Assembly: GCF_030733745.1 (NCBI RefSeq)
Contig: NZ_JASHIK010000006.1
Span: 62,001 to 126,000, forward strand
DNA: 64,000 bases
Source of the DNA: Stappia sp. MMSF_3263
Lineage (GTDB): Bacteria; Pseudomonadota; Alphaproteobacteria; Rhizobiales; Stappiaceae
Direction: 5' to 3'
Shown here: in pieces, positions 8,464-36,761 of the stretch
How the letters are laid out: each line of letters opens with the position of its first letter
Numbering within the stretch: the first letter of the stretch is position 1
Translations under genes and position numbers: made by a program
Notes under the pieces: generated by a model
Seen by the model: only the letters and a program-made list of their open reading frames with translations
What the model was told of the DNA's origin: nothing
Database searches by the model: none

Positions 8464-8490
8464 CGGCTATAGTCGGACCGGGTTTCGGAG

Positions 8491-8934: not shown

Positions 8935-8947
8935 TTTGAAACTCCCG

Positions 8948-12052: not shown

Positions 12053-12080
12053 GAATTCCTCCCAGTCGGATCGCAATAGA

Positions 12081-12100
12081 ACTTATTAGATAGCTAAGTT
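12081..12100. promoter_or_regulatory. TTAG-N4-CTAA operator, reductase operon
   Basis: TTAG-ATAG-CTAA at 12086-12097 lies 34 bp upstream of the reductase start. An outer inverted repeat AACTTA/TAAGTT spans 12080-12100. The core matches the elements at 14838, 18921, 30871 and 33511, and is proposed as a MarR binding site. Confidence 0.6.
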
Positions 12101-12164
12101 GGTGAAGTCAACCGCTTGGCGATCTGCTGAAACGTTACGTGTTTTCCGTGGCCTAACGAGTTAT

Positions 12165-13337
12165 CTAGGTATTCCGTCCAGGCAGTGCCGCGGCGTTTCT
12201 TCTACCCGCGATATGATGCTGTCCGAGCTGTTGAACCGATTTGCAACCAATGAAAATCAGTGTTCTGCGCACTTCGTCCTCCAGTATCGACAGGGCTTGC
12301 GCCGCCCCATCGCGGCCACCGGCCGCCAGGCCGTATAATGTCGCCCGGCCGAGAAGTACGCCGTGTGCCCCCAAAGCAAGCGCCTTTACGATATCGCTGC
12401 CCCGCCGAATGCCGCCGTCCAGCAGAACGGTTGCATCGCGGTCTAGCTGTCCGGCAATGTCCTCAATGACTTCGATGGTCGCGGGCGCACCATCGAGTTG
12501 GCGGCCCCCGTGATTTGACACGATGACCCCGTCAGCGCCCTCCTTGCGGGCGCGTAACGCGTCCTCTCCGCACATTATGCCTTTGATCAGCAGCGGTCCG
12601 TTCCATTGTTTGCGAATACGGCGGACATCGTCCCAGGAAAAATGAGGATTCCGTTGGGAACGGGTGAAATCCGCCAGCGCTGCGTCGCTTACCCCCTCCC
12701 CCAGGAACGCCACAAGATTCTGTAATCGTGGCCTGTTTCTGCCAAGCCAAACCGAACCCAGCCATCTAGGATGCATCAGCCCGTCCAGGATTATGGGAGC
12801 GCTCATTTTGATTTCATGTGAGAAACCGTGCCGTAAATCACGCTCGCGTTTCCCCCCAACCAAAGAGTCGACCGTGACGATCAGCGCCGCATAGCCGGCT
12901 TTGGCGGCACGCTCTATGAGCGCCTCGGAAAACCCCGGTTTTCCCCACGGATAAAGCTGGAACCAAAGAGGACTATCCGTTTGTTGCGCAATCGCTTCCA
13001 TTGATGTGTTGGACGCCGTGGAAACCGCGAAACCGACACCCGCGCCTTGGGCGGCACTTGCCAGATGCAAATCCCCTTTCGGCCAATAGATCCCGTTCAA
13101 ACCCGTCGGGCCAATAATGAAAGGTGCAGAGAATTTCTGGCCAAATAGATTGACCGAGAGATCGACCATGCCACCGTTAAGAATTCTGGGTCTTAACTGA
13201 ATATCCTCATATGCCTGCCTGTTTCTCTGCAGAGTAACTTCGTCTTCAGCCCCGCCATCAAGAAAATCGAACACGACCCGAGGCAAGCGAATGCGGGCCA
13301 ATCGGCGCAAGTCGTCAATGTTGATGGGTTGGCTCAT
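12165..13337 (-). CDS. FMN-dependent 2-hydroxyacid dehydrogenase (L-lactate/mandelate dehydrogenase family)
   Basis: A protein of about 390 aa from the ATG at 13337 (MSQPINIDDLRRLARIRLPR). It is a classic (beta/alpha)8 FMN oxidoreductase: DFLDGGAEDE near the N-terminus, FGQKFSAPFIIGPTGLNGIY, the WFQLYPW strand, VTVDSLVGGKRERDLRHGF, the active-site SNHGGRQLDGAPATIEVIED and the phosphate-binding LLDGGIRRGSDIVKALALGA. It oxidises a 2-hydroxy acid to the 2-oxo acid and probably passes electrons to the respiratory chain. Its place between the oxygenase and reductase genes suggests an aromatic hydroxy acid as substrate rather than lactate (inference). It ends 113 bp before the reductase start, with an operator between. 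Confidence 0.88.
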   Translation of the reverse strand: MSQPINIDDLRRLARIRLPRVVFDFLDGGAEDEVTLQRNRQAYEDIQLRPRILNGGMVDLSVNLFGQKFSAPFIIGPTGLNGIYWPKGDLHLASAAQGAGVGFAVSTASNTSMEAIAQQTDSPLWFQLYPWGKPGFSEALIERAAKAGYAALIVTVDSLVGGKRERDLRHGFSHEIKMSAPIILDGLMHPRWLGSVWLGRNRPRLQNLVAFLGEGVSDAALADFTRSQRNPHFSWDDVRRIRKQWNGPLLIKGIMCGEDALRARKEGADGVIVSNHGGRQLDGAPATIEVIEDIAGQLDRDATVLLDGGIRRGSDIVKALALGAHGVLLGRATLYGLAAGGRDGAAQALSILEDEVRRTLIFIGCKSVQQLGQHHIAGRRNAAALPGRNT

Positions 13338-13486
13338 CTTACTTGCCGATTTGCTTCGCCACAGCCCGCGACACCCCGAGATCACACCCTTGCGGCGACG
13401 ACACATCGCCCCCCCTCCGCTCACGAAAGATCCGCCCAAGACCACATGCGGCCTCAGGCGGATCCGGGAGGAAGTTTCAGCGGAAC

Positions 13487-14767
13487 CTATTCTGCAGCGA
13501 CAGTTTTTCCCGAAGTGTTGAGAAGTGTTCGCCAGTCGGTTTCTTTCGGGTAGACCCCCTCGTGGGAGTTGATCAAAACCTGCGGGATCTCGGAATCCGT
13601 TCCGATTGCCTGGCCACCTTCGGCTACTTTTTTAGCCGCATCCGCCATCAGGCGGCGGAATTCGACAATGGCCAGGTCCGACGCACCGAGGACATCGGTG
13701 TGGCGCTGGACGCGCGCGCCCATCGACACCCACATCGCAATATCCTGGTTGGGAATGCCCTTGATACCAGTAAAATTGCCTTCCTTCATCGCATCACGAT
13801 CCTGAAGGAAATCGTTGTCCAAGGTGCGCAGGCAACGCCATTTGTCATCGACATCCACACCCGGCACCGCATGCGTGAACCGGCGCCACTCTTCCGTTGT
13901 CGGGACGTTCGGCCCATCCCAAGCAATGAAGTGGAAAGCGGTTTCCTCATCATTGATTGGCACGATCACCGCGGCCACCCTGTAATTGTTGTTGGGCGGT
14001 ATCAGCGAGTAGTAGGGCGCAACGAATTCGGTAACCCGAATGTAATTGTGCGTAGCCGCGTTCTTGATGGGAGTACGGATCGCGGCATAGTGAAACCCAT
14101 AACTTGTCGTTTCCGTTTGCATGCGAGGCGATTTGTCGGTCGAGGGCCGATACCATGACTTTTCGTCCGCCGCCGCGCCTTCGACTTTGGCTGGAACCAT
14201 GTCAGATGAATGCAGCGAAGACGAGTGCGCGCTGTCGATCTGGCCTTCGTGGATCTGCGCCCAATTCGCGGGGATTCGGATCTTTAGGATTGCGATCGGA
14301 GAATCCGCGCGCGGCGCAAATGCCGGCGGTTGGAACTCCGGCATTTCGTCTTTGTCGCCAAGCCAAGCCCAGACGAAACCGCCCCACTCGCGAACGGGGT
14401 AGGAACGGTGCTTCACCTTGTCCATCAGAGGACTGCCTTCCGGCTCCGACGACATAGCGACAACGTTGCCGTCAACGTCCATTTTCCAGCCATGATAGAG
14501 GCAGCGAAGCCCGCATTCCTCATTTCGGCCAAAGACCAGCGAAGCCTTGCGGTGCGGGCAAAGCTCATCCAACAGGCCCAGGCGCCCCTTTGAATCGCGA
14601 AATGCCACATAGCTTTCGCCGAGAACTTCAACGCGAAGCGGCTTGCCGTCCGGCTCTTCCACCTCTTCGATCAGGCAAACAGGAGTCCAATGCTGACGCA
14701 TCAGCCGCGCCATCGGGGCGTCGCCGGTCACACGGGTCAGCAGTTCATTCTCTTCGGGTGTAAGCAT
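13487..14767 (-). CDS. Rieske aromatic-ring oxygenase, phthalate 4,5-dioxygenase type
   Basis: An oxygenase subunit of 426 aa from the ATG at 14767 (MLTPEENELLTRVTGDAPMA), which has GGAGG upstream. The Rieske ligands are Cys70-Pro-His72 and Cys89-Leu-Tyr-His92. The mononuclear-iron segment WAQIHEGQIDSAHSSSLH carries the two histidines. The N-terminal sequence and the FGRNEECGLRCLYHGW box are typical of phthalate 4,5-dioxygenase and relatives, which are alpha-only oxygenases fed by a class IA reductase. The expected reaction is cis-4,5-dihydroxylation of a phthalate-like acid. It heads its own transcript, with an operator at 14838. Confidence 0.9.
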   Translation of the reverse strand: MLTPEENELLTRVTGDAPMARLMRQHWTPVCLIEEVEEPDGKPLRVEVLGESYVAFRDSKGRLGLLDELCPHRKASLVFGRNEECGLRCLYHGWKMDVDGNVVAMSSEPEGSPLMDKVKHRSYPVREWGGFVWAWLGDKDEMPEFQPPAFAPRADSPIAILKIRIPANWAQIHEGQIDSAHSSSLHSSDMVPAKVEGAAADEKSWYRPSTDKSPRMQTETTSYGFHYAAIRTPIKNAATHNYIRVTEFVAPYYSLIPPNNNYRVAAVIVPINDEETAFHFIAWDGPNVPTTEEWRRFTHAVPGVDVDDKWRCLRTLDNDFLQDRDAMKEGNFTGIKGIPNQDIAMWVSMGARVQRHTDVLGASDLAIVEFRRLMADAAKKVAEGGQAIGTDSEIPQVLINSHEGVYPKETDWRTLLNTSGKTVAAE

Positions 14768-14837
14768 TTGATCTCCCTCCTCCACGGACCGCCACGTCAA
14801 AAAACACCATCGGGCGGCTTATGGCTTCTCCAGTATT

Positions 14838-14851
14838 CTTAGCTTTCTAAG
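14838..14851. promoter_or_regulatory. CTTAG-N4-CTAAG operator, oxygenase promoter
   Basis: CTTAG-CTTT-CTAAG is a perfect 5-bp inverted repeat 71 bp upstream of the oxygenase start. It is one of five similar elements in the window. Confidence 0.65.
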
Positions 14852-15114
14852 TTTAAGCTGTCAACTGGAGGGCAGAATTTTTTCGCCTGCTATTGCAGGA
14901 TCCCGAAACCCTGACTTCGGAGTGTCCCGCTGCCGTGAAATCCGGCCTCCCCTCGTCCAACGCGAAGGCCGCACAACGGCTGTTGTTGGAGATGAAAACT
15001 CTATGAATTCAGAGCATCGTGCGATGCTTTTATGGGAGGTTCCGGCAACTGACCTAAGCGTGAAAGGTTCATGGCCGATGCACGATCTATTTGCGCCTTT
15101 TGAGAAAAATCTTG
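14852..15114. other. Intergenic region with palindromic repeat
   Basis: I see no gene between the oxygenase promoter and the 184-aa gene. A perfect palindrome AGCATCGTGCGATGCT (15013-15028) followed by TTTT occurs here and includes the dispersed AGAGCATCGTGCGAT repeat (15011-15025). It may act as a weak terminator. Confidence 0.4.
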
Positions 15115-15669
15115 CTAGAGTTCCAACCACGAATGCATTTTTCTCATGAGAAACGGCATTACGTAACGCGTATTCAAACCTGTCAGAACGAATGCCACCA
15201 AAAACAAAGAAATCGGTGCAGATACGTTTTCGGTTAGCGGCTTTAACGCGTGGTATATTATGATCAGCAACGGATAGACACCCAGCATACTGACCACCCA
15301 GCGTTTCCAAAAAAGCGGTTGCTTTTGCACATCCTCAATCGGCTCGCTGACGACAGCGTCGCAGCGAATCTTTGCGGAAGAATTGCTCAGTTGGTGTCGG
15401 AGTTCTCGACCGATGTAGCCGGGCAAATCCCGACCATCTGATTTGAGCTGGGCGACGTCGAATCTCAAGGAAAATAAAACTTCGCCACCATGGGCGCTTC
15501 GCATTTGCCCGCTGCTTTCCGCGTTCCTGTCCGCAGAAACGATATCGACGGTTAAATCATGAATAGCTTGCGTTACGCGCGCCAGATCTTCCGGCAGAGC
15601 TGTAATTGTAAGTATCAAGCCCGACCCGTTGCCTACCGGTGCCGGTTGACCTGCCTGAATTTTTGACAT
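15115..15669 (-). CDS. Membrane-anchored protein of unknown function (184 aa)
   Basis: The start is taken at the ATG at 15669 (MSKIQAGQPAPVGN). The first ~120 residues are soluble, with an alpha/beta ABM-like opening (GLILTITALPEDLARVTQAI). The last ~60 form two membrane helices (WVVSMLGVYPLLIIIYHAL and ISLFLVAFVLTGLNTRYVMP). The C-terminal membrane part resembles the tail of antibiotic-biosynthesis-monooxygenase (ABM)-type membrane proteins, so a small sensory or degradative function at the membrane is possible. It lies downstream of the TAXI-TRAP permease and may be co-transcribed with it. Confidence 0.65.
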   Translation of the reverse strand: MSKIQAGQPAPVGNGSGLILTITALPEDLARVTQAIHDLTVDIVSADRNAESSGQMRSAHGGEVLFSLRFDVAQLKSDGRDLPGYIGRELRHQLSNSSAKIRCDAVVSEPIEDVQKQPLFWKRWVVSMLGVYPLLIIIYHALKPLTENVSAPISLFLVAFVLTGLNTRYVMPFLMRKMHSWLEL

Positions 15670-15814
15670 GTGTAGACTACCCGTTGGTATCAGCAAGTCC
15701 AATCAAGCGGTCGAACTGATCGTAATTCTTCAAAACGCAGGTGCCGTCCGGTCGAGTGAATGTTTTCCATATTCCATTCGCACGTCGACCGGGACTAAGG
15801 ATTTTCGACGTTTC

Positions 15815-17698
15815 TCACCCTCGCAGAAACACGAACTGTCGCACGATCAACCCGGCAATCAGCAAGATGCACAAGCCGGATACGACAGGATAAGGGCTTA
15901 CAGCCCCCACCGCCGCAACCGTTAGGAGGACTCTTTCCCAGGTGAGCAGTTCGGTCTTGATCAATCCCTCTATCGAGGCTGCGACGGCGAGCGCGCCAAA
16001 GAACGCACCGACCACTGCGAGAGTGTTTGCCAAAGGCCCGAGCTCCAGAAGTATTCCCGGATTCCAGACGAAGGCGAAAGGTAACAAAAATCCAACGATT
16101 GCAAGCCTTACGGCCGAGAAAGCAATCTTGAAAGGATCCTCGTCGGCGATCGCAGACGCGGCAATGGCTGCAACGGCGATCGGAGGAGTTAGCGCAGACA
16201 AGATCGCATAGTAGAGCAAGAACATTTGGCTCGGAAGGATCGGGAAACCGAGCTTGGATAGCGCCGGTCCCACGAGCACGGCCGCCAGAATATAGGCGCT
16301 CGGGGTCGGCATCCCCAGACCGAGAACGATCGTGACGGCTGCGGCAATCACGAGCGTCAGTATTGGCTGCGCATCGCTAACGGTTAGAATCACATTCGCT
16401 GATTTCATCCCAAGGCCGGTCATGGACAATCCGCCAATCACCAGGCCCGCAGCAGCACATGCACCGGCAACCGGCAAAATCTGCAGAGTGGTTGTTCCAA
16501 GACCTTCCACGATTTGCCAAGGCGAAAGCCGCGTTTCTTTCAGGATAAATGAAGCGACAATCGTGACAAGGACGCCGACACCAGCCGTAAGCGTCGGCGA
16601 ATAACCGAGTATCAGCGCAACGATAATACCGATGATAGGCAGCAAAAAGACCCAGCCGGTTTTGAACGTTTCCGCAGCGGTTGGAACCTCGTCTTCCGAC
16701 GGGCGCAGGTCGTATTTGACCGAGCGCAAGTGCACCTGGGCGAAAACGCCGGTATAATAAAGCAGAGCTGGTACCAGGGCCGCGAGCACGATCGAGTTAT
16801 AGGAAATACCCGAGTACTCGGCCATGATGAAGGCCGCCGACCCCATGATCGGGGGCATCGCGCTACCACCGGTGGATGCCGCAACCTCCACCGCTCCTGC
16901 AAATCGGGCGCGATATCCAAGCCGTTTCATCACAGGGATAGTGATCGAACCGGTTGCGACGACATCGGAAGTGGGGCTGCCGGACATCGTTCCATATAAT
17001 CCAGACGAGATGATCGCGATCTTGGCAGGCCCTCCTCTTGCGCGCCCGGTGACCAGAGCCGCAAGGTTAAAGAAGAAATCGCCGCCTCCTGCCTTTGAAA
17101 GAAATGTTCCGAACATCACGAAAAGGAAAACGTAGCTGGCCACCACCTGAATCGGGACGCCAAACAAGCCGTCGGTCGTGAAAACGAGGATATCGAGCAG
17201 ATACGTAAACTCGCTAACCCGATGACCGAAGGGAGGTGGCAGCAGATAGCCAAAAAGATTGTAGAACAGAAAGAGCAAGACAACCCCGGTGAGCCCCAAG
17301 CCGGTAGTACGCCGGGTCGCTTCGAGCGTCAGAAACAGGAGCGAGGAACCGAAGAACAACTGATCGATCGTGAACTCATCCAGAATACTTATTCGGTTCG
17401 CTATCGCTCCCGAATTCATGAAGAAATAGACGCCGCAAGCAAGACTGAGAGCCGCCAGAATCCAGTCGTAGAAAGGAATCCGATCCGGCGCTCTGGAGGT
17501 CGCTCCAATCGCCAGAAAAAGAATGGTGAATATCCCCGAAATAAAGAGAATACCCTGAATAAGCGGGTCAGCGATAATGAACAGATTTGAATGAACCACC
17601 CATATGGCGAAGGCCGCCGACAGTACCTTGACAACGGTACTCATGGTAGGTGCGAGTTTTCTACGGCGGCCAGTTTCAGTCAGCGAAGGGAAGTCCAT
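15815..17698 (-). CDS. TAXI-type TRAP transporter, fused small and large permease
   Basis: A 627-aa polytopic membrane protein. The first ~150 residues hold four helices equivalent to the DctQ part, and the rest is a DctM-like body. Family landmarks are GGGDFFFNLAALVTGRARGGPAKIAIISSGLYGTMSGSPTSDVVATGSITIPVMKRLGY (1st substrate-gate region; about residues 205-265) and GLGMPTPSAYILAAVLVGPAL with LSALTPPIAVAAIAASAIA near 465-520. It uses an ion gradient to import a solute delivered by the TAXI binding protein encoded upstream. The start is uncertain: a later ATG at 17644 is also plausible and neither has a strong ribosome site. Confidence 0.9.
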   Translation of the reverse strand: MDFPSLTETGRRRKLAPTMSTVVKVLSAAFAIWVVHSNLFIIADPLIQGILFISGIFTILFLAIGATSRAPDRIPFYDWILAALSLACGVYFFMNSGAIANRISILDEFTIDQLFFGSSLLFLTLEATRRTTGLGLTGVVLLFLFYNLFGYLLPPPFGHRVSEFTYLLDILVFTTDGLFGVPIQVVASYVFLFVMFGTFLSKAGGGDFFFNLAALVTGRARGGPAKIAIISSGLYGTMSGSPTSDVVATGSITIPVMKRLGYRARFAGAVEVAASTGGSAMPPIMGSAAFIMAEYSGISYNSIVLAALVPALLYYTGVFAQVHLRSVKYDLRPSEDEVPTAAETFKTGWVFLLPIIGIIVALILGYSPTLTAGVGVLVTIVASFILKETRLSPWQIVEGLGTTTLQILPVAGACAAAGLVIGGLSMTGLGMKSANVILTVSDAQPILTLVIAAAVTIVLGLGMPTPSAYILAAVLVGPALSKLGFPILPSQMFLLYYAILSALTPPIAVAAIAASAIADEDPFKIAFSAVRLAIVGFLLPFAFVWNPGILLELGPLANTLAVVGAFFGALAVAASIEGLIKTELLTWERVLLTVAAVGAVSPYPVVSGLCILLIAGLIVRQFVFLRG

Positions 17699-17805
17699 GC
17701 CTATACCGTTTCACGATTGTTTGTTTGAAAGTAAATTGCCCATACTGAACGTGCCTTGCCTGTGTTTACACATGCAAAGTCCGCAGCAGTGCACTTGGCA
17801 GCAGT

Positions 17806-17842
17806 ATGCAGCCGGCGCGCTGTTTTTGCGGGCCGGCTGCAT
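17806..17842 (-). terminator. Strong hairpin between TAXI binding-protein and permease genes
   Basis: ATGCAGCCGGC (17806-17816) and GCCGGCTGCAT (17832-17842) form a perfect 11-bp GC-rich stem around a 15-nt loop in the 157-bp gap. It has no T-run past the stem on the minus strand. Such intercistronic hairpins commonly stabilise or partly terminate the mRNA, so that the binding protein is made in excess over the permease. Confidence 0.6.
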
Positions 17843-17855
17843 TATCTGAAAGGTG

Positions 17856-18845
17856 TTACTTAATAAGACCCAATTCCATGTAAGCGCGCTTTGCACCGGC
17901 ATGGAACGGAAGTGTGGTCTGAGAAACAAGCAGTTCTGGCGTCAACTGCTTCATCGCGTTGTGCACGCCGCGAATTTCATCGATATTTTCTGCGATATCT
18001 TTTGCGAGCATATAGCCGGTTTCTTCGGGCAGGCTCTCGGTCGTGATCACCATTGCACCCAGTGCGACCGTAACAACGTCATCAGATTGGTTGGCGTAAC
18101 TTTCGCCGGGAATTGTATAGATTCCCGTTCCAAATTTTTCGTTCGTCTTCTCAATGATTTCCTGAGGAACACTCAGAAGTACGACTTCATTACTTTTGTC
18201 AACTTTTCGGAACGACGAATGTCCTACAAAGATACCGTTAATAACCATGTCGGTCCGACCGTCGGTTATCAGGTCCGCTTGCTGAGCAGAGCCGCCCCGA
18301 ACCAGAACCCCGCCGTTCGCTTCGATAGTAGCCTCATCATAGCCGGCTTCTTCGAGCATGAACGTCGTGATATTGGCCACGATGTTGCCCGCATTGTTGT
18401 TCGCAACGCGTATAGCCGCACCTGATTTCGCGAGATCGTCAATACTGTCGATCCCGTATTCATCGGCAATGGATTTTCTAAGGAAAAAATGCATCGGCGC
18501 CCAATTGTACATATACCCGATGGCCTGAAGATTGTTGATGGGTGCCTTGAACGGTTCTTCTCCGGCGAGCGCCAACTTGATCTCGGCGTCGTGGGCCAAA
18601 CCTAAGTCCGTCCGACCTGCGCCCAGCAAAGCAATGTTTGCAAACCCGCCTCCGGTTGCTTGGTATGTAACGACACCACTGGGATCGTCAGCCTTAACTG
18701 CTCGGTCAATGCCAGCACCAAGCAGAGACCAAAGACCGGACGGGTTTCCTCCCGAAAGTGTGACGGTGACGCTTTCCGCAACTGCGCTGCCTGCAATTGC
18801 ACACATTCCGATGGCAGCAATAACGGCTTTAAAACTCTTTTTCAC
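17856..18845 (-). CDS. TAXI-family TRAP transporter periplasmic binding protein
   Basis: A protein of about 329 aa from the GTG at 18845, which follows GGGAGGA. A signal peptide (MKKSFKAVIAAIGMCAIAGSAVAES, read with fMet) exports it to the periplasm. The TAXI signature appears as VTLSGGNPSGLWSLLGAGID near the mature N-terminus. A substrate-binding middle region includes ATGGGFANIALLGAGRTDLGLAH, and the C-terminal half contains GGSAQQADLITDGRTDMVIN. TAXI proteins bind small organic acids such as glutamate or aromatic acids. Context with the phthalate-type enzymes suggests an aromatic or dicarboxylic acid. Two palindromes lie in its promoter. Confidence 0.9.
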   Translation of the reverse strand: MKKSFKAVIAAIGMCAIAGSAVAESVTVTLSGGNPSGLWSLLGAGIDRAVKADDPSGVVTYQATGGGFANIALLGAGRTDLGLAHDAEIKLALAGEEPFKAPINNLQAIGYMYNWAPMHFFLRKSIADEYGIDSIDDLAKSGAAIRVANNNAGNIVANITTFMLEEAGYDEATIEANGGVLVRGGSAQQADLITDGRTDMVINGIFVGHSSFRKVDKSNEVVLLSVPQEIIEKTNEKFGTGIYTIPGESYANQSDDVVTVALGAMVITTESLPEETGYMLAKDIAENIDEIRGVHNAMKQLTPELLVSQTTLPFHAGAKRAYMELGLIK

Positions 18846-18866
18846 AGGTTCCTCCCTCTCCATCCT

Positions 18867-18894
18867 CATAGACATCTAATGTTAGATATCTATG
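18867..18894. promoter_or_regulatory. Long palindrome in TAXI-TRAP promoter
   Basis: The left arm CATAGACATCTAA and right arm TTAGATATCTATG are 13-bp inverted repeats with one mismatch and a 2-bp centre, 22 bp before the GTG. The core is shared with the stress-protein promoter palindrome (2491-2504). It probably overlaps the core promoter, so repression is the simplest model. Confidence 0.6.
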
Positions 18895-18920
18895 TTATAT
18901 AGGAATAATGGATTGCCGCT

Positions 18921-18936
18921 TCTTAGTCAACTAAGA
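18921..18936. promoter_or_regulatory. TCTTAG-N4-CTAAGA operator, TAXI-TRAP promoter
   Basis: TCTTAG-TCAA-CTAAGA is a perfect 6-bp inverted repeat, the most symmetric copy of the element seen at 12086, 14838, 30871 and 33511. It lies 76 bp upstream of the TAXI start. Confidence 0.65.
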
Positions 18937-18949
18937 TCAGGGTTTTTGG

Positions 18950-19283
18950 GTGGAGCTGATTTGCAGAGTTCTGCCGATTGCCCCATCGGCTCGTCACGAG
19001 AATGTCGCCAAGCGACAGGGCGCGGAGCGGCTTTCGGTCCACCCCCGCCGCGGTATCGCTCTGAAGATCGAGGCGCCGTGTCTTCGAGGAAAACTTCCGC
19101 GTCTATGGTAGGCGTAAGATCCGGCGGCAATTGCAGCGGGAGGGCTTCAATATCGCCCGTTGCACGTGGCCAGGCTTATGAAGGCCATTGGGCTTCAGGG
19201 GAAAATTCGGGGCAAGCGGCTCAAAACGACGTTTCCGGACAAATCCGCGCCAAACCCGCTCGACCGTATGAACCGCCCGTTCG
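18950..19283 (+). pseudogene. IS3-family transposase OrfB fragment with frameshifts
   Basis: Reading across three frames gives VELICRVLPIAPSARHENVA, then VFEENFRVYGRRKIRRQLQR, then VARLMKAIGLQGKIRGKRLK and FPDKSAPNPLDRMNRPF. This is the N-terminal third of an IS3-family (IS407-like) OrfB. Frameshifts lie near 19072 and 19165, and the catalytic DDE part is absent. It is a decayed insertion between the TAXI promoter and the MarR gene. Confidence 0.75.
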
Positions 19284-19314
19284 ACAATGCTGTCGGCTCA
19301 CTGGCCTACGATAG

Positions 19315-19833
19315 CTAAGAGGAAGCGTGGCCCTTGGTTGGCGGCATCCGAACCCCACGCGATGCGGCACGTCGTTCATCTTCCTCAAGATTTCGGATCA
19401 TGACAGTCAGCGCTTTTCGCAACGTGGTTTGCTCGTCCTTGGTGAGGCTGGAAAGGGCGATATCATTGGCTTCGAGCGCGAGCGGTTCAAGCAGTTCACG
19501 AAGTTCCCAACCTTTCGCGGTCAGGAACGCATGCAGACGACGCTTATTGCCCTCGACATTGCGCCGAACAATGTAGCCCAATTCCTCCATGCGAATAAGT
19601 GCGGTATGTGCGGTCGGTTCCGTGAGATGCGCTCTATCGCTCAGTTCGCGTTGAGACAGCCCATCCTCTTGCCAGAGAATGCGGAGGAATATCCACTGTC
19701 CAAAGGTAACATTTTGGGTTTGAAGGCGGATCTGTAGAGAACGGTTGAAACCGCGCGCAGCCAGGCGCACCAGCCTCGCTATACGTTCAACGCCCGCCTC
19801 ATCTGCCGCGCTATACTCAATTTGTTCGCTCAT
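19315..19833 (-). CDS. MarR-family regulator, candidate master repressor of the catabolic blocks
   Basis: A 172-aa MarR protein. An N-terminal dimerisation helix (AGVERIARLVRLAARGFNRS) is followed by FGQWIFLRILWQEDGLSQRE, the recognition region LTEPTAHTALIRMEELGYIV, the wing RRNVEGNKRRLHAFLTAKGW and C-terminal dimer helices. MarR repressors bind 16-20-bp palindromes, usually relieved by aromatic ligands. It sits between the two catabolic blocks that share the CTTAG-N4-CTAAG element, and is the nearest regulator to four of the five sites. No copy lies before its own start, so no autoregulation is visible. It may be transcribed with the 20020-30844 operon. Confidence 0.88.
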   Translation of the reverse strand: MSEQIEYSAADEAGVERIARLVRLAARGFNRSLQIRLQTQNVTFGQWIFLRILWQEDGLSQRELSDRAHLTEPTAHTALIRMEELGYIVRRNVEGNKRRLHAFLTAKGWELRELLEPLALEANDIALSSLTKDEQTTLRKALTVMIRNLEEDERRAASRGVRMPPTKGHASS

Positions 19834-20019
19834 GGCCTCATAAGATCAGCACGACGAGCTATTGCCAAGTCCCTGAAAAGCACCGCAGCCACTTACAGCA
19901 CAACAAACTGCATCGCTGCACAGCCGGGTGCTCTTTTTCGCAGGGAGATCGCCTCGGGGTTTGCAGTTTACATGGAGCGGACTCTCATTAAGCATCAAGC
20001 GAAGTCCGGCCAGTTCACG

Positions 20020-21063
20020 TCAACCCTCCTGCATGTTCGCCAACCGCTCTCTCCAAACAGGTTCGACTTCGAGATTGCGGGTGTATTTCGGCAGATCGCC
20101 ATCCATGAGGCGGGTGGCGTTTTCCACCAGAACCTCCGGCATGATCGAATAAAGATCGATCGTATGACCCAGGATGTGCGGCGTAAGGACGACACGATCA
20201 AGCCCGCGCAGCGGGTGATCCGCCGGTAGCGGTTCGGTCTCAGTCACATCGAGGCCAACTCCCGAAAGATGGCCTTCGGACATGACCTCGACCAAAGCGT
20301 CTTCGTCGATCAGTCCGCCACGGGATGTGTTCACCAGGATCGCGTCACGTTTCATTTTCCGCAGTTCGGCCTCCCCGATCATTCCGCGAGTTTGTGCATT
20401 GAGAGGCACATGCAGGCTGATCACGTCGGACTGCACCAGTAACGCGTCGCGATCGACCAGACATACGCCTTCAGGTGCGGTCTCCGGCGTCAGGAAGGGA
20501 TCGTGAACCAAGATCTCAGCCGGTTCGAATGCCCGGAGGCGGTCGATCACCCCGCCGCCGATCCGGCCCGAACCAACTAACCCGACAGTCCTGCCGCGCA
20601 GCATACGGGCATACATCTGCTGCGGACGTTTGGCGTTTTCATGCAAGAGACGCTCAGATGTGTGCAGCTTGTAGAGAAGCACGAGCATCAGCATCACGGT
20701 TGCCTCGGACATCGCGAGAAAATTCTCGGGGGTCGCTCCGTTCCCCACGATTAGCCCGCGCATTCCGCAGGCCTCGAGATCGACCGCGTCGACCCCGATC
20801 GTGGGAAACACCAGCGCCCGCAAGCGCGAAGACGCATCGAGATCTTCTTCGCTGAGCCGAGAGCGGGAGCTGGCCACGATGATATCCACGTCCGACAATA
20901 GTGTCTGCCGCTGCTCTGCAGACAGGCGTAAAGGCACACCTGGAACTATTGCCGGCCCCCGCACCACATCCCAGCCAAGATCGGAAAGCTTGGTCGAAGC
21001 GCTTTCGAGTACGTCCGCGAGCACAGGATCCTGTGCTATATAGATCTTGGGTTTCATCTTCAT
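20020..21063 (-). CDS. D-isomer-specific 2-hydroxyacid dehydrogenase
   Basis: An NAD(P)-dependent oxidoreductase of 347 aa. The nucleotide-binding motif is GLVGSGRIGGGV (about residue 160). The catalytic triad is visible as Arg in ILVNTSRGGLIDEDAL, Glu in LDVTETEPLP and His in VVLTPHILGHT. It interconverts a 2-oxo acid and its D-2-hydroxy acid in the cytosol. Its start overlaps the end of the ThDP-enzyme gene as ATGA, so the two act together, probably on the same oxo acid. It is the last enzyme gene of an eight-gene operon. The exact substrate cannot be read from the sequence. Confidence 0.88.
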   Translation of the reverse strand: MKMKPKIYIAQDPVLADVLESASTKLSDLGWDVVRGPAIVPGVPLRLSAEQRQTLLSDVDIIVASSRSRLSEEDLDASSRLRALVFPTIGVDAVDLEACGMRGLIVGNGATPENFLAMSEATVMLMLVLLYKLHTSERLLHENAKRPQQMYARMLRGRTVGLVGSGRIGGGVIDRLRAFEPAEILVHDPFLTPETAPEGVCLVDRDALLVQSDVISLHVPLNAQTRGMIGEAELRKMKRDAILVNTSRGGLIDEDALVEVMSEGHLSGVGLDVTETEPLPADHPLRGLDRVVLTPHILGHTIDLYSIMPEVLVENATRLMDGDLPKYTRNLEVEPVWRERLANMQEG

Positions 21064-22829
21064 TCGCTCCGGGTCAGGCCAGCAACCATGTTGGGGTTGT
21101 AACCAGGCTGAACGCGCGCATCGATCACAACGCTCTTACCTTCACGAACCAACTCGATGCCTTTCTTGACCGCTTCGACCAGTTCGCCCGCGGTAAAGAC
21201 AGGCCCGATCCCCTCGCATCCCTGTGCACGAGCAACGCCTGCGATGTCGATGTCCGGATCGCCGATACGCTGACCGATCCACTTGTTCTCCACCGGACGG
21301 TTGCGAGCGACGGCAACACGCTCCTGGTGAACCTCGTCATTGTAGAAAGAGCGGTTGTTCGACACCACCGCCAGAAACGGTGCTCCATAGTGCGCCGCGG
21401 TCCAGAACGCCGAGGCCGCCATCATGAAGTCGCCATCCCCGAGAACCGCGACCGGTATACGCTCGCTGCCTTTCAATGCCAGCGCGGCACCGATCAGCAT
21501 ACCCGGACCGGAGCCGATCCCGGCACCGCCATCGGAGCCAAGGAAATCGAGTGGGTGGCGGAAATGCCACGCCTCGCCCGCCCAACCGAGCGGCAAGCGC
21601 ACCATGCTGGCGCAAATTCCGTCCAGCCCTTCGCCAAGTGCCCCGGCCAGCGTCATGATATCCAGCTGCGCTTCCGGAGCGGGAGCATTCAGGGCGGGTT
21701 TCACCGGCAGGTTTTCGGGCTCGTCGCCAGCGCCAACACCCAGCAAATCCGCAATGGCATGCATCGCGCGATCCGGCGAACTGGCCAGGTGGAGATCGAG
21801 TGCCGACAGCCCCTGATGCTCCATGCCCCAGCCATTGTGCAACTGATAATCGAGAGAGGCCTGGATAATCTTGGCTTCAACCTTGCCTGCCAGCTTGAGC
21901 GTTCCGGCAACGTCAAGCCAGTCGAGGCTGAGGATCACATCGGCTTCCCGCAGAACTTCGCCCGCCGCATCGTCGATAAAGAATGCAGGTTTGCCACGGT
22001 GCAGAGGATGGTTCGTCGGGAAAGAAGCGCCGATCCGGATGTCGGTCAGAACCTTCGCTCCCAAAGCTTCGACCAATGCCACACGCCGTGCCCAGTCAGC
22101 CGGATCGCGCGACACCCGCCCCGCCAGGACAACCGGATTTTTGGCGTTTTTCAGCAACTCGGCGGCACGCGCCACCCCCTCAGCGGAAGGGTCCGCCGGC
22201 AGTGGCGACCGGTAACGCGAAAAGTCGGGCAATGCCGGCGCTTCGGCATGCTGTTTTTCCTGGATCGACACATCAAAATTTACATAAGTCGGGCCGTGCG
22301 GTTCCGCCCGGGCAATCAGATTTGCCCTCAGCATGGATTCGATCGCTGCCTCCATCGAAGCAGGCTGGTCATCCCATTTCACATAGTTGCGTATCATTGA
22401 AGCTTGGTCGCGGCAGGTATGCAACCAGTCGATCCATGGACGGCGCAACGCCGCATCCACAGGTCCGGTCGCACCGTAGATCAACACAGGCACGCGGTCG
22501 CACCAGGCGTTGAAAATTGCCATCGTTCCATGCATCAGCCCGACATTGCTGTGCAGGATCACAGCAAGAGGTTCACCTGTAACCTTGGCATATCCGTGCG
22601 CGATTGCCACTGCATGTTCCTCATGCAGGCAAAGCAACATCTGTGGGTCTTCGTTGCCCAGGTGGTTCACCAGGCTGTCATGTAGCCCACGAAAGCTCGA
22701 TCCTGGATTAAGGGTGACGTATTTAACGCGAAGACCCCTAAGCATCTCCGCAAAAACGTCGCTCCCCCAAACTCCGTCGCTGTCAGAGGCAACCGGCCGT
22801 TCAACTCCCGAAGGTCTTTGATCAGTCAT
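21060..22829 (-). CDS. ThDP-dependent enzyme (2-oxoacid decarboxylase/acetolactate-synthase superfamily)
   Basis: A 589-aa protein in three-domain order. The N-terminal Pyr domain has NPGSSFRGLHDSL and the cofactor-activating glutamate in LCLHEEHAVAIAHGYAKVTG. The central domain has AKNPVVLAGRVSRD. The C-terminal PP domain has VAVLGDGDFMMAASAFWTAA and VVSNNRSFYND, the GDGD-N-N metal-diphosphate motif. The superfamily includes benzoylformate decarboxylase, oxalyl-CoA decarboxylase and carboligases; the sequence does not pick one. Decarboxylation of an aromatic 2-oxo acid would fit the neighbouring hydroxyacid and aldehyde dehydrogenases (inference). It overlaps the D-2-hydroxyacid dehydrogenase gene by 4 bp. 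Confidence 0.87.
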   Translation of the reverse strand: MTDQRPSGVERPVASDSDGVWGSDVFAEMLRGLRVKYVTLNPGSSFRGLHDSLVNHLGNEDPQMLLCLHEEHAVAIAHGYAKVTGEPLAVILHSNVGLMHGTMAIFNAWCDRVPVLIYGATGPVDAALRRPWIDWLHTCRDQASMIRNYVKWDDQPASMEAAIESMLRANLIARAEPHGPTYVNFDVSIQEKQHAEAPALPDFSRYRSPLPADPSAEGVARAAELLKNAKNPVVLAGRVSRDPADWARRVALVEALGAKVLTDIRIGASFPTNHPLHRGKPAFFIDDAAGEVLREADVILSLDWLDVAGTLKLAGKVEAKIIQASLDYQLHNGWGMEHQGLSALDLHLASSPDRAMHAIADLLGVGAGDEPENLPVKPALNAPAPEAQLDIMTLAGALGEGLDGICASMVRLPLGWAGEAWHFRHPLDFLGSDGGAGIGSGPGMLIGAALALKGSERIPVAVLGDGDFMMAASAFWTAAHYGAPFLAVVSNNRSFYNDEVHQERVAVARNRPVENKWIGQRIGDPDIDIAGVARAQGCEGIGPVFTAGELVEAVKKGIELVREGKSVVIDARVQPGYNPNMVAGLTRSE

Positions 22830-22854
22830 GCGATAAGTCCATGTTATTGAGGTT

Positions 22855-23628
22855 TCAGTGGTGGCTCAGCAGATGGCCGAAACCATGTGGTTGATCGTTG
22901 AACCCGGCTGTTCTCAGCAGATGCCAAGCCATAACCTGATTGCTTGTGATCACGGGTTTGCCAAGCTGCTCCTCGAGGAGGCTGACGACCTCGAGCGAAC
23001 GGATCGCCGTGCAGCTGACAAAATATGCATCGGTTTTTTGGGCGTAATGTTCTTTCGTTAACGCAAGCCAGTCTTCCGGCGGCAAGGCGGCCATATCCCT
23101 TGGATGGTCTATTCCGAGACCATGGGCATCGATGACGTCAAATCCATGCCGATTGAGAAATGCGACTTCGCTTTTGACGATGTGGTCGACATAGGGGGTA
23201 ATCAAGACCAGCGTTCGCGCCGTCAGTGCATTTAGAGCGCTTACGATCGCTTCAGACGTAGCGACGACCCGTCTGCCGGAGGCTGAACACGCGCGCGCCA
23301 GAATATCTCTCTCCAGTTGCTCGCTCAGCGTGGAAACAGCAGTACAATGAAATCCGACGACCGCAGGATCGACATCGCCCACAAGCGAAGCCGCAGTTTC
23401 GACATCTTCTGCCATGGCGTTTAGTTGTTCGCGCGAACTGCCGGTCAGTCGCAGGCGCGTCACATGCAAAGAGATATCCCGCGGTAACAATGCGGCCAAA
23501 TCTCCCTCAGCCACAATGTTGCCGGACGGCAAGATCACTCCGAAACGCGCGCGCCCGCCAAAACGGAACCCACACGCAAGACTGTTCAACCGGGGCGGCG
23601 CTACGAGATCGCGATTATCGCTCATCAT
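22855..23628 (-). CDS. Asp/Glu racemase superfamily protein, maleate isomerase/arylmalonate decarboxylase-like
   Basis: A 257-aa protein. The N-terminal strand is RARFGVILPSGNIVAEGDLA, as in maleate cis-trans isomerases. Two catalytic-type cysteines are present, in VGFHCTAVST and YFVSCTAIRS. A second helix-strand region, EAIVSALNALTARTLVLITP, is typical of the fold. Two cysteines argue for an isomerase or racemase rather than a one-cysteine arylmalonate decarboxylase. It lies between the TRAP binding-protein and ThDP-enzyme genes, so it probably prepares the imported substrate for cleavage. Confidence 0.82.
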   Translation of the reverse strand: MMSDNRDLVAPPRLNSLACGFRFGGRARFGVILPSGNIVAEGDLAALLPRDISLHVTRLRLTGSSREQLNAMAEDVETAASLVGDVDPAVVGFHCTAVSTLSEQLERDILARACSASGRRVVATSEAIVSALNALTARTLVLITPYVDHIVKSEVAFLNRHGFDVIDAHGLGIDHPRDMAALPPEDWLALTKEHYAQKTDAYFVSCTAIRSLEVVSLLEEQLGKPVITSNQVMAWHLLRTAGFNDQPHGFGHLLSHH

Positions 23629-23695
23629 TTGTACAGATGGTTCAAGGGTTGTCCGGGCTCGGTGACACGACGGATGTCACCGAACCCAATGCCAT

Positions 23696-24802: not shown

Positions 24803-24841
24803 ACTTCCTCCTCCCATTTTGGACTTACTGTTCGACTGTTT

Positions 24842-28787: not shown

Positions 28788-28798
28788 TGTGTTATCCT

Positions 28799-30844: not shown

Positions 30845-30870
30845 ATCGTCCTCCCAAACTCAGGCGAATT

Positions 30871-30885
30871 ACTTATTAAATAACT
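30871..30885. promoter_or_regulatory. Degenerate copy of the TTAG-N4-CTAA operator, hyu operon
   Basis: ACTTATTAAATAACT matches 13 of 15 bases of the element at 12082-12096 (ACTTATTAGATAGCT on the same strand, starting at 12081). It is a weaker match than the other four sites, but its place 27 bp before hyuA makes it a credible regulator target. Confidence 0.45.
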
Positions 30886-30935
30886 CAATCACATATTACG
30901 TAAATCAAGTCAACTGACGGTCCGGGCGCTGGACG

Positions 30936-30962
30936 AAAAAAAAGCGGCGAATTTTCGCCGCT
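30936..30962 (-). terminator. Rho-independent terminator after nadC
   Basis: AGCGGCGAA / TTCGCCGCT forms a 9-bp stem (30943-30962) with a 2-nt loop. On the minus strand it is followed by a run of eight T (30936-30943), the classic terminator form. It lies 23 bp past the nadC stop and separates that transcript from the hyu operon. Confidence 0.85.
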
Positions 30963-30984
30963 ACGCGCTTTTTTGTCTGTGAGA

Positions 30985-31836
30985 TCAGAAATCCAGTCCG
31001 AAATCGACCGTGCCAGCCGAATGGGTCAACGCTCCCGATGATATGTAATCAACTCCCGTTGCAGCGATCTCTTGCAGCCGGTCGATGCGTACATTGCCGC
31101 TCGCTTCGGTCTTCATCCGACCGTCTATCCGGCGCACGGCCTCTGCCATGTCCTGGGTCGACATGTTGTCAAACAGAATGACATCGGCGCCTCTTGCCTC
31201 TAACACTTCATCCAATTGCCCAAGCCCGTCGATTTCGATCTCGACAACGACCATATGCCCCGCAGAACGCTTGACCGCTTCCAGAACCGGCCTGATTCCT
31301 CCGGCCGCGGCGATGTGATTATCCTTGATCAGGATGGCGTCCGATAATGAGAACCGGTGATTATGGCCTCCACCGTGAAGAACAGCGAGCTTCTCGACAA
31401 GCTTCATGCCTGGCGTCGTTTTTCGGGTGCACGTTATTCTGGCTCCGGTCCCTTCGAGAGCCTGCGCGTATGCAGCTGTAAGCGTTGCCGTCCCTGAAAG
31501 TCGGCCCGCGAAGTTCAGCGCCACACGCTCGGCAGCGAGAATCGACGACGCCAGTCCCTCGACTTTCAAAAGCGTATCGCCGGCCTTGCAAGCGGAACCG
31601 TCCGCAACGACCGTTTCAATCTTCAAGGTGGGATCGATCAGACGAAACGTCAGGGCTGCAACTTGCATACCGGAAACAACCGCGGCCTGCCTGGCTTTCA
31701 GTTCGGCCCGATAACGCGTGGTTTCCGGAAGAACGGCACGCGTCGTAACGTCGCCGGCGCCTCCTAGATCCTCCATGATGGCGTTTCGGACCATAGGCTC
31801 CAATATGATGTCCGGGACCCTAGCAAAGCTGTTCAC
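30985..31836 (-). CDS. nadC: Nicotinate-nucleotide diphosphorylase (quinolinate phosphoribosyltransferase)
   Basis: A protein of about 283 aa from the GTG at 31836, with AAGGAG upstream. It is a textbook NadC: EDLGGAGDVTTRAVLPETTR at the N-terminus, NFAGRLSGTATLTAAYAQAL, RKTTPGMKLVEKLAVLHGGG with HNHRFSLSDAILIKDNHI, VVEIEIDGLGQLDEVLEA and the C-terminal GVDYISSGALTHSAGTVDFG. It joins quinolinate and PRPP to give nicotinate mononucleotide. It stands alone, without nadA or nadB, 163 bp after the aldehyde dehydrogenase gene and probably in its transcript. Its presence in a catabolic block is unexpected. Confidence 0.94.
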   Translation of the reverse strand: MNSFARVPDIILEPMVRNAIMEDLGGAGDVTTRAVLPETTRYRAELKARQAAVVSGMQVAALTFRLIDPTLKIETVVADGSACKAGDTLLKVEGLASSILAAERVALNFAGRLSGTATLTAAYAQALEGTGARITCTRKTTPGMKLVEKLAVLHGGGHNHRFSLSDAILIKDNHIAAAGGIRPVLEAVKRSAGHMVVVEIEIDGLGQLDEVLEARGADVILFDNMSTQDMAEAVRRIDGRMKTEASGNVRIDRLQEIAATGVDYISSGALTHSAGTVDFGLDF

Positions 31837-31999
31837 TGTGTTTGCTCCTTCTCGGTTGTCAACGCGCACTCGCCGGTCTCACAACGAGGGGCGCCTGCCT
31901 GCAGGATCGCGGATGCCCTCGCCGGCTGCTGTCAAATGAATACAATCGACGGCAAACCCATGGAGTGGCGCCGTGCCGGGACGCCACCCGGCCGCAAAT
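31837..31999. other. Intergenic gap between aldehyde dehydrogenase and nadC
   Basis: A 163-bp stretch without a recognisable gene, promoter or operator copy. The two flanking genes are probably co-transcribed. Confidence 0.4.
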
Positions 32000-33478
32000 T
32001 TATTGGCCCTGCAAATTGATGTGGATGTTCTTTTCGTGAGTGAAGGAAATCAGCTCTCCGATCCCTTCTTCCCGTCCGATACCGGATTGCTTCACCCCAC
32101 CGAAGGGAGCCCCCAGGAAATGGCGGCCGACCTCGTTGACCCAGACAAAGCCTGCCTCGACGCGTGCAGCGGTTCGATGCGCGGTAGCGAGATCGCGTGT
32201 CCATATTGCGCAGGTCAGGCCAAGCTCGAGCGCATTGACCTCTCTCAGCATTTCGTCTTCGTCGCTCCACTTCCGAATAGCCAGTACAGGACCAAATATT
32301 TCTTCGCGAGCGATCCTCATGTCCGGTGTCACATCGGCGAAGATCGTCGGCGCGATGAAACAGCCCTCGGCCAAAGCGCCATCGGTCACCGCGTGCCCGC
32401 CCGTCACCGTACGCGCGCCCTCGCTCACGGCCGACTCGATGAAGCTCAGCACGCGATCGAATTGAGTTCGGCTGACAATAGCTCCCATGGTTGTCGTCGG
32501 ATCGGTCGGGACGCCCGGCTTGTAACGCTCGACTGCTTTAGCCAGGAGAGAAACGACCTCGTCGTGAATGTCTTCATGAACAAAGGCTCTGCTGGTCGAA
32601 CCGCATGACTGTCCGCACCAGCCAAAGTTCATTCCGGCAACGATCGCATCGGCGATCTTCTTGGGATCGCTGTCCGGATAGGCGATCAAGGCATTCTTGC
32701 CGCCCAATTCCAGCAGGACAGGTTTAACTGTGGCGCTCGCACTGCGCATCACCGCGCGCCCGGCCGGCACCGAACCAATCAGCGTTACCTTGGCCACGCC
32801 TGGATGCTCGGCCAAACCCGCACCGGCTTCAACACCGCCAGGCAAAACGCTGAAGGTGCCCTTCGGCAACAACCCTTCAACGATTTCGGCGAGGCGAAGA
32901 GCCGAGAGAGGCGCTTGCACCGGCGGCTTGATGATTACGGCATTGCCCGCCGCAAGGGGCGCAGCCATCTTACCGCCGCAGAACATGAAAGGATGATTGA
33001 AGGCAAGGATACGTGCGACCACGCCGAGCGGCTGGCGCGATGTCATGTTGACGCGGTCCGGCCCCATCGGAATCGTGTCGCCTTTCATCTCGGTCACGAG
33101 GCCTGCAAAAAAGTCCATTTGAGCCGCCGCAATCGCGGCATCCCCGCGCATTTCCGTATAGGGATTCCCGCAATTCGCGGCGTCGATCAGTGCGAGTTCG
33201 TCTCCATGCTTACGGAGAAGGGCAGCAATTTCCTTCAGTATCCGTGCCCGCTCCAGGGGCAAAACATCACGCCATTCATGGAACCCTTTGAGCGCTTCCG
33301 CCACCGCTCTATCGACATCGGCACGACTCGCGGTGGCGACCATGCCAATCGGCTGGCCGGTTCCCGGATTCAGCGTTTGTTCGTAGCTGCCTTCGACCGG
33401 TGGAACCCATGCGCCACCGTAATAAAGATCGGCCTGTTTCGAGAGCTTCAGGTTCGCGTCAAGGTTCAAGGTGTCCAT
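32000..33478 (-). CDS. NAD(P)-dependent aldehyde dehydrogenase
   Basis: A 492-aa ALDH-superfamily enzyme. The nucleotide-binding GSVPAGRAVMRSA segment (near 230) leads to the active-site LLELGGKNAL glutamate and the catalytic cysteine in the atypical MNFGWCGQSCGSTSRAFVH motif. C-terminal markers are EEIFGPVLAIRKW and PFGGVKQSGIGREEG. The substrate is unknown; in this block it could oxidise an aromatic aldehyde released by the ThDP enzyme (inference). GGAGGAC lies upstream of the ATG. Its promoter holds the element at 33511 and nadC follows. Confidence 0.9.
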   Translation of the reverse strand: MDTLNLDANLKLSKQADLYYGGAWVPPVEGSYEQTLNPGTGQPIGMVATASRADVDRAVAEALKGFHEWRDVLPLERARILKEIAALLRKHGDELALIDAANCGNPYTEMRGDAAIAAAQMDFFAGLVTEMKGDTIPMGPDRVNMTSRQPLGVVARILAFNHPFMFCGGKMAAPLAAGNAVIIKPPVQAPLSALRLAEIVEGLLPKGTFSVLPGGVEAGAGLAEHPGVAKVTLIGSVPAGRAVMRSASATVKPVLLELGGKNALIAYPDSDPKKIADAIVAGMNFGWCGQSCGSTSRAFVHEDIHDEVVSLLAKAVERYKPGVPTDPTTTMGAIVSRTQFDRVLSFIESAVSEGARTVTGGHAVTDGALAEGCFIAPTIFADVTPDMRIAREEIFGPVLAIRKWSDEDEMLREVNALELGLTCAIWTRDLATAHRTAARVEAGFVWVNEVGRHFLGAPFGGVKQSGIGREEGIGELISFTHEKNIHINLQGQ

Positions 33479-33510
33479 CAGATTTGTCCTCCTGCATGCA
33501 CACCTGTTAT

Positions 33511-33524
33511 CTTAGAGCTCTAAT
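33511..33524. promoter_or_regulatory. TTAG-N4-CTAA operator, aldehyde dehydrogenase-nadC promoter
   Basis: CTTAG-AGCT-CTAAT, with a perfectly symmetric TTAGAGCTCTAA core (33512-33523), lies 33 bp before the aldehyde dehydrogenase start. It matches the elements at 12086, 14838 and 18921. Confidence 0.65.
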
Positions 33525-34784: not shown

Positions 34785-34859
34785 TTGGTTATACTTTTGG
34801 CACGATTTTGTATTTTTCGGAACTTAAAAATTATGTGAAGGATTGCTCGGGAGAGACCG
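34785..34859. promoter_or_regulatory. pcaQ-pcaD divergent promoter region
   Basis: A 75-bp AT-rich gap. A GGTTAT half-site (34787-34792) resembles one arm of the PcaQ box reported in rhizobia (ATAACC-N4-GGTT type). A complete box is not visible, so the site is provisional. Confidence 0.4.
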
Positions 34860-36759: not shown

Positions 36760-36761
36760 TA

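Follow-up and report, generated by a model that had tools for sequence, protein, structure and literature searches.

Does a single MarR-family regulator control the aromatic-degradation genes that surround it, and through which DNA site? The question is raised by a 64,000-nucleotide stretch of Stappia sp. MMSF_3263 (contig NZ_JASHIK010000006.1, positions 62,001–126,000; hereafter the window, in whose positions all coordinates are given). An initial annotation had proposed that the MarR protein encoded at 19315–19833 represses five transcription units through a CTTAG-N4-CTAAG palindrome placed before genes for a reductase (site A), a Rieske oxygenase (site B), a TAXI-TRAP binding protein (site C1), an aldehyde dehydrogenase (site D) and HyuA (site at 30875). 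Four of these five proposed sites are real, far beyond chance. The locus is probably a regulon of a known kind, compact and conserved, in which the four sites are right and the regulator is probably right, with the hyu genes not supported as members. We place at about 0.83 the probability that the palindromes are operators of the 19315–19833 MarR, which would repress the four units until released by phthalate or a pathway metabolite.

A palindrome at four promoters

All five strings reported in the initial annotation were present at the coordinates given there. Four of them contain the exact 12-mer TTAG-N4-CTAA, whereas the fifth, at 30875, carries two mismatches. A motif scan of the whole 5,024,014-base genome, proposed with that annotation, returned four exact 12-mers, every one of them at the promoters at 12085, 14838, 18922 and 33511, compared with 16 exact occurrences of the reversed control pattern. 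With up to one mismatch allowed, the corresponding genome-wide numbers were 60 and 585. Four random sites would fall within one 21.4 kb span with a chance of ~3e-7. When palindromes of two 4-bp arms separated by 0–12 bases were all ranked over positions 2553–34900, using a gene list made in this analysis, TTAG/N4 came first by intergenic count, with four intergenic occurrences and none in coding sequence. A scoring matrix built from other genomes (46 sites from 19 of the 24 loci described below) gave the four exact sites 15.9–26.7 bits. The one-mismatch pattern was only mildly enriched in the window (14 found, 6.9 expected), so the strength of the signal rests on the exact matches. A stricter pattern, WTTAGNWNNCTAAW, had no matches in the genome and was dropped, being incompatible with the outer C/G of the window sites.

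The initial annotation had noticed no further copies in the window. Our scan identified ten other one-mismatch places, including 18868, 18882 and 7023, plus a place at 2492 scoring 11.7 bits; the sites at 2492 and 7023 had been overlooked, as had the pair at 18868/18882 (C2/C3), which together make a single long palindrome. C1 in combination with this tandem pair was seen only in Stappiaceae copies of the locus. C1 also lies at the edge of a decayed transposase-like remnant (18892–19314), presumably of the IS3 type, situated between the MarR and TAXI genes; HTH_21 was matched there in two frames (E 2.7e-6, just below the curated cut-off, and 0.014).

The palindrome in relatives

Outside the window, the palindrome was counted in 24 loci totalling 537,888 bases. 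This set omits the near-identical Stappiaceae copies (L025, L047, L048 and L053–L056), the short copies L049/L050, the near-identical roseobacter loci (L027, L033–L035 and L037), L040 and the short L036. TTAG/N4 ranked first of 2816 arm/gap combinations, with 55 exact occurrences observed and 0.2 expected, in a set whose kept pairs L029/L039 and L032/L038 still share some 40-mers. The next-ranked combinations, TAGA/N2 and CTTA/N6, capture largely the same sites.

Sites upstream of individual genes were tallied over 28 loci (the 24, the Neptuniibacter locus L071 and three Stappiaceae copies), leaving out homologues whose match began after residue 60 and those with <165 bases upstream; all upstream tallies below refer to this set. 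Exact sites preceded 20 of 24 reductase and 20 of 25 Rieske homologues. For the TAXI gene the exact site was found in 6/16, rising to 15/16 with 0–1 mismatch, and for the aldehyde dehydrogenase in 6/17, the rest being inside longer runs or without a site. The background in random 265-bp chunks of the same loci, real sites included, was 2.6% for an exact match and 4.9% for 0–1 mismatch. Exact sites were also found before EamA (2/9) and IclR (1/4) homologues, and before none of the homologues of the dehydrogenase (0/24), the fused permease (0/15), nadC (0/12, one mismatch in three) or the thiamine diphosphate (ThDP)-dependent enzyme (0/12, one mismatch in one). A one-mismatch site stood 52–55 bp upstream of four of five homologues of the universal stress protein gene.

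The sites keep to their genes despite rearrangement, as in Thioclava, Limimaricola and Thalassospira. On a larger scale, 13 whole plasmid records (4.14 Mb) held 27 of their 36 exact sites within the studied loci, which make up 329,144 bases (8%); these whole-record counts used 23 loci. In larger genomes, the exact sites in or near the cluster were 4/9 in each of G085, G045 and G087, 4/6 in G089, 3/5 in G091, 4/5 within 21 kb in G090, 1/5 in G092 and 0/2 in G094. Maritimibacter alkaliphilus (G093, locus L032) carries seven of its eight exact sites on one contig in two groups ~40–50 kb apart, an arrangement that suggests two copies of part of the predicted regulon.

The MarR regulator

The 19315–19833 protein contains a winged-helix MarR DNA-binding domain (PF01047, 38.2 bits against a cut-off of 24.6). 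Its NCBIfam matches fall below cut-off and its PDB matches are weak, including a distant one to chain 2fbk (E 4.5e-6), which we take to be HucR. Homologues were identified in 13 genome loci and, at E up to 1e-5, in 66 plasmid records, 23 of the latter predicted to be conjugative. Of the 87 genomes of its own family, 5 (its own genome counted) encode the protein at E up to 1e-20, three of these five having a copy 99–100% identical; none of 13 other genomes of the same genus does so at that level. This patchy presence points to horizontal transfer of the gene.

Homologues 36–99% identical accompany the palindrome across alpha-, beta- and gammaproteobacteria and through gene rearrangements, lying beside phthalate genes together with the palindrome. 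The residues PT of the recognition helix are kept in all 26 aligned members of this group. Even on the gammaproteobacterial plasmid of Neptuniibacter (L071), whose MarR is 38% identical, the helix reads GPTT and four exact sites are present. In six control loci, which have a decarboxylase homologue and no MarR with a PT helix, we found no exact sites. Three of these (L068, L069 and L073) gave no match to the 19315–19833 MarR at E 1e-3, L070 has a MarR 22% identical and without PT, and L067 and L072 (Novosphingobium KA1) have MarR proteins 33% identical with helices AATT and ENTT; L073 has a single one-mismatch site. In one control, the Antarctobacter plasmid locus L068 (10001–16669), ThDP and aldehyde dehydrogenase genes lie close to the decarboxylase homologue; LysR regulators are also present, and there are no sites. 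This co-travel with the palindrome in three classes, together with the repressor-like geometry described below, makes the 19315–19833 MarR the best candidate for the binder, as initially annotated.

Promoter geometry and proposed mechanism

At sites A and B the sequence TTGAC starts 14 bases before the 12-mer, and the operator would occupy the promoter spacer, adjoining the −10 region. A −35 box with TTGAC 8 bp ahead of the operator is a frequent arrangement: the 14-base offset recurred in 14 of 23 homologous promoters from other genomes (Rieske-type 6/12, reductase 8/11), the sites having been chosen by hand, one per promoter. A ninth of the 11 reductase promoters has TTGCC instead of TTGAC. 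For the aldehyde dehydrogenase the offset is 10 bases, both in the window and in three of four others chosen in the same way. In a consensus promoter scan, operator B overlapped a promoter-like TTGACA-18-AAGAAT, and no match covered A or D, where the −10 boxes were assigned by eye. Operators between or over the core promoter boxes are typical of repression, and the spacer position at a fixed offset from TTGAC suits repression through blocking of the polymerase.

Based on these features, we propose that, at the promoters of the reductase, Rieske, TAXI and aldehyde dehydrogenase genes, a dimer of the 19315–19833 MarR would bind CTTAG-N4-CTAAG in the interval separating the −35 and −10 boxes, or on top of these boxes, and thereby block RNA polymerase. 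Phthalate or a pathway metabolite would then free the operator and switch on uptake of o-phthalate and its conversion to protocatechuate, which the pca genes, having no site of this kind, would use up. What the sequence shows directly is the motif, where it lies, how enriched it is and that it co-occurs with the regulator; binding and repression are deduced from these features, and release by a ligand is suggested by analogy with the MarR family.

The fifth site, hyuA and the ThDP gene

The remaining proposed site, at 30875, reads TGAG-TTAT-TTAA on the minus strand. By matrix it ranks 14th in the window with 2.9 bits, far from the range of the exact four, and an equally good match is present in 22% of random 265-bp chunks. 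In Salipiger abyssi (L029) the stretch upstream of hyuA resembles that of the window by eye, but the arms are not kept, and the best match there is another two-mismatch one, 172 bp upstream. Given the two mismatches, the low score and the arms not kept in Salipiger abyssi, we reject 30875 as a regulon member, and the hyu genes are not supported as a direct target. Direct control of all five units by this MarR, extending to hyuAB and with them the ThDP gene, thus appears unlikely, even though 30875 resembles site A by eye and hyuA has an upstream region of its own. The latter lies behind a terminator-like hairpin with a T run (30943–30962) between nadC and hyuA, so that hyuA probably needs its own promoter.

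The ThDP gene deserves separate consideration, since it is a regulon member in relatives and closes the hyuA-led run in the window. In Roseivivax and Sulfitobacter, genes for the reductase, the dehydrogenase, the decarboxylase, a small protein, the aldehyde dehydrogenase, the ThDP enzyme and MarR follow one exact site. No better evidence than this run places the ThDP and aldehyde dehydrogenase genes in the predicted regulon of relatives. In the window, only the aldehyde dehydrogenase–nadC unit of the two has a site, and the hyuA promoter is without a convincing one. With the ThDP gene last in the hyuA run, behind the hairpin that follows nadC, its direct control by MarR is uncertain here. The proposed link between the ThDP and phthalate genes is supported in relatives and lacks a convincing site in the window. 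An arylmalonate-decarboxylase/EutA-like gene (22855–23628) lies within the same hyu-TRAP-ThDP run.

Evidence against the proposed regulator and alternative binders

Several observations weigh against assigning these sites to the 19315–19833 MarR. The regulator's own gene has no good site in the window, and among its homologues an exact site precedes 3 of 26 (8 of 26 with 0–1 mismatch). Large genomes have many exact sites elsewhere, for example, five of the nine in G085, and the word is common in a gammaproteobacterial metagenome-assembled genome (G088, 41 in 2.7 Mb). The six control loci are weak, as only Novosphingobium KA1 has most of the phthalate genes, and this locus, with its 33% identical MarR and no exact sites, shows that the pairing of MarR and palindrome is not universal. 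Variovorax (L059) has a PT-type MarR with only one-mismatch sites. Finally, several loci also carry an IclR, a LysR or a second MarR.

This last point bears on whether the second MarR (7105–7491) or the IclR (3909–4742) of the cluster binds the palindromes instead, which we consider improbable. The second MarR gene does have a one-mismatch site 76 bp ahead of it, and one-mismatch sites also precede all three of its homologues, two of which are near-identical to the window. However, the recognition helix of the second MarR is without PT, and upstream of its gene (6974–6994) is a different, perfect 9-bp inverted repeat, ATAGTAAGA-N3-TCTTACTAT, perhaps its own operator; both features disfavour it as the binder. 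In addition, exact sites are present at the loci of Roseivivax, Sulfitobacter dubius and Massilia, yet no IclR or second MarR is annotated in the stretch, nor any other catabolic-type regulator within ~12 kb, in PLSDB gene tables that are themselves incomplete.

The 19315–19833 MarR could also bind these sites and activate transcription. Some MarR proteins act as activators, and the sequence alone is compatible with this, but an operator that lies in the spacer or covers the core boxes, in many cases at a constant distance from a near-consensus −35, makes activation improbable. A chance or non-regulatory repeat, for which nothing speaks apart from the shortness of the motif, is practically discounted by the excess in other loci, the top rank of TTAG/N4 and the confinement of the four genomic sites to these promoters.

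Genes of the cluster

By sequence similarity, this is a Pht3/2/4/5-like cluster of the o-phthalate 4,5-dioxygenase type. It also comprises genes for TAXI-TRAP uptake, an extra nadC and a PhdK-like aldehyde dehydrogenase gene, and pca genes lie close by (Table 1). The oxygenase, reductase, dihydrodiol dehydrogenase and 4,5-dihydroxyphthalate decarboxylase are all present together, and this specific route from o-phthalate to protocatechuate had been overlooked in the initial annotation. The closest solved relatives of the Rieske oxygenase are 7fjl/7v25/7v28 (E 5e-179), which we take to be Comamonas phthalate dioxygenase, followed by 7fhr, a putative phthalate 4,5-dioxygenase (E 1e-59). A reading of the Rieske/VanB pair as part of a mandelate/vanillate pathway ending in O-demethylation gives way to phthalate in view of these matches and those to 2pia, 7wzd and pht5. 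The extra nadC (30985–31869) is 48% identical to a second nadC elsewhere in the genome; phthalate clusters elsewhere often carry nadC too. In the pca region (33873–38491), pcaD, C, H and G are above their NCBIfam cut-offs, pcaB is above that of PRK05975 and below that of TIGR02426, and the PcaQ-like regulator reaches 280 bits against a cut-off of 303.8; the region has no exact palindrome.

Table 1. Predicted operators and genes of the phthalate locus, in window positions.
Feature	Positions	Strand	Remarks
Operator A (predicted)	12085–12098		Before reductase gene (Pht2-like); exact 12-mer; TTGAC starts 14 bp before
Operator B (predicted)	14838–14851		Before Rieske oxygenase gene (Pht3-like); exact 14-mer
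Operator C1 (predicted)	18922–18935		Before TAXI binding-protein gene; exact 14-mer; TTGAC inside
Operators C2/C3 (predicted)	18867–18894		Two one-mismatch sites, 14 bp apart, in TAXI leader
Operator D (predicted)	33511–33524		Before aldehyde dehydrogenase and nadC; exact 12-mer
Possible weaker operator	2491–2504		~55 bp upstream of universal stress protein gene; two mismatches, 11.7 bits
Possible operator, binder uncertain	7022–7035		Before second MarR gene; 16.3 bits
Fifth site of initial annotation, rejected as member	30875–30888		Two mismatches, 2.9 bits
MarR-family regulator, proposed phthalate repressor	19315–19833	−	172 amino acids; Pfam MarR E 1.4e-9
4,5-Dihydroxyphthalate decarboxylase-like (Pht5), NMT1-type	8948–9940	−	Homologues annotated pht5 / 4,5-dihydroxyphthalate decarboxylase
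Gfo/Idh/MocA dehydrogenase, Pht4-like	9937–11157	−	7wzd 4,5-dihydroxyphthalate dehydrogenase, E 1e-124
Reductase, phthalate dioxygenase reductase-like (Pht2)	11114–12076	−	2pia phthalate dioxygenase reductase, E 1e-92
Flavin mononucleotide (FMN)-dependent alpha-hydroxy-acid oxidase	12165–13445	−	FMN_dh E 2e-131
Rieske oxygenase, phthalate 4,5-dioxygenase-like (Pht3)	13487–14800	−	LigXa_C
TAXI-TRAP uptake, binding protein and fused permease	15815–18875	−	TIGR02122, TIGR02123 above cut-off
ThDP enzyme (benzoylformate-decarboxylase-like) and D-2-hydroxyacid dehydrogenase	20020–22829	−	No separate site in the window
Aldehyde dehydrogenase (PhdK-like by position) and extra nadC	30985–33478	−	A second genomic nadC is 48% identical
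pcaQ-like LysR gene (minus) and pcaDCHGB (plus)	33873–38491		Protocatechuate branch, NCBIfam

The solved structures nearest to the ThDP enzyme are those of benzoylformate decarboxylases (E 1.5e-27). We speculate that this enzyme, acting together with the hydroxy-acid oxidase, could produce 2-carboxybenzaldehyde from a hydroxy or keto acid bearing a 2-carboxyphenyl group. A broader proposal, in which a regulon defined by a single MarR and a single operator has been widely transferred across three proteobacterial classes and these two enzymes feed 2-carboxybenzaldehyde from 2-carboxymandelate- or phthalonate-like acids to the PhdK-like enzyme, is tentative and on balance doubtful. If true, it would mean an undescribed upstream route and would suggest some larger phthalyl compound, not a plasticiser or phenanthrene, as the natural substrate in the sea. 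The tie between a benzoylformate-decarboxylase-like enzyme and phthalate catabolism suggests a natural precursor worth seeking.

The proposed switch is of an ordinary type, its DNA site not having been found described in our literature search. It provides a specific and cheaply checkable candidate operator, on plasmids and chromosomes, for a presumed phthalate-responsive repressor, and may be useful for finding phthalate genes and for o-phthalate biosensors. A review describes the diversity of o-phthalate clusters as a large parts resource for such devices (PMC13040137).

Comparison with known systems

MarR-type repressors of aromatic catabolism are described in a review as using palindromic operators of 16–20 bp (PMC10458429), and CouR is reported to be released by a catabolite. 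The 19315–19833 MarR shares with CouR, HpaR and DesR a gene within the catabolic cluster and, as a candidate, a palindromic operator, and differs in the pathway. No published MarR operator for phthalate genes was found in our search of the open-licence literature. The palindrome may resemble the box of the HucR/UrtR urate regulators; the same search yielded no HucR operator sequence in print.

A phdK-pht cluster with a MarR gene is itself already known. In Thalassospira, according to the parts of the report on this cluster, phdK (2-carboxybenzaldehyde dehydrogenase, 492 amino acids) adjoins pht2–5, with a MarR gene and a TRAP transporter also there, and 2-carboxybenzaldehyde supported growth of strain GO-4; the MarR is just listed in those parts, with no operator or regulon described, and a ThDP gene is not among the table rows given there (PMC9604089). 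Our Thalassospira locus L045 has the same content plus one exact site. The aldehyde dehydrogenase of the window, also 492 amino acids long and 50% identical to that in L045, is likely the counterpart of the phdK product. Compared with the Thalassospira cluster as tabulated, the window adds the hydroxy-acid oxidase, nadC and the D-2-hydroxyacid dehydrogenase.

A second precedent is phtR, a MarR gene in the phthalate 4,5-dioxygenase cluster of Sphingobium yanoikuyae SHJ, which also has a nadC-like gene; the section on this cluster gives the role of phtR without data (PMC6051330). On the Sphingobium plasmid locus L064, the MarR in a position like that of phtR (9987–10466) has NT, not PT, in its recognition helix, and the locus also holds a PT-type MarR and four exact sites (94, 2712, 11579 and 14197). 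Two MarR and two hydrolase genes flank the phthalate genes there as inverted copies (116–14186).

Other components of the window have parallels as well. Quinolinate phosphoribosyltransferase (nadC) improves growth on phthalate, a finding of Chang and Zylstra (1999) that PMC6051330 cites, and TAXI-TRAP transport has been reported for phthalate in denitrifiers, as summarised in a review (PMC13040137). With the pht/oph clusters the window has in common the oxygenase, reductase, dehydrogenase and decarboxylase, and it differs from them in also having the hydroxy-acid oxidase, the ThDP enzyme and the D-2-hydroxyacid dehydrogenase.

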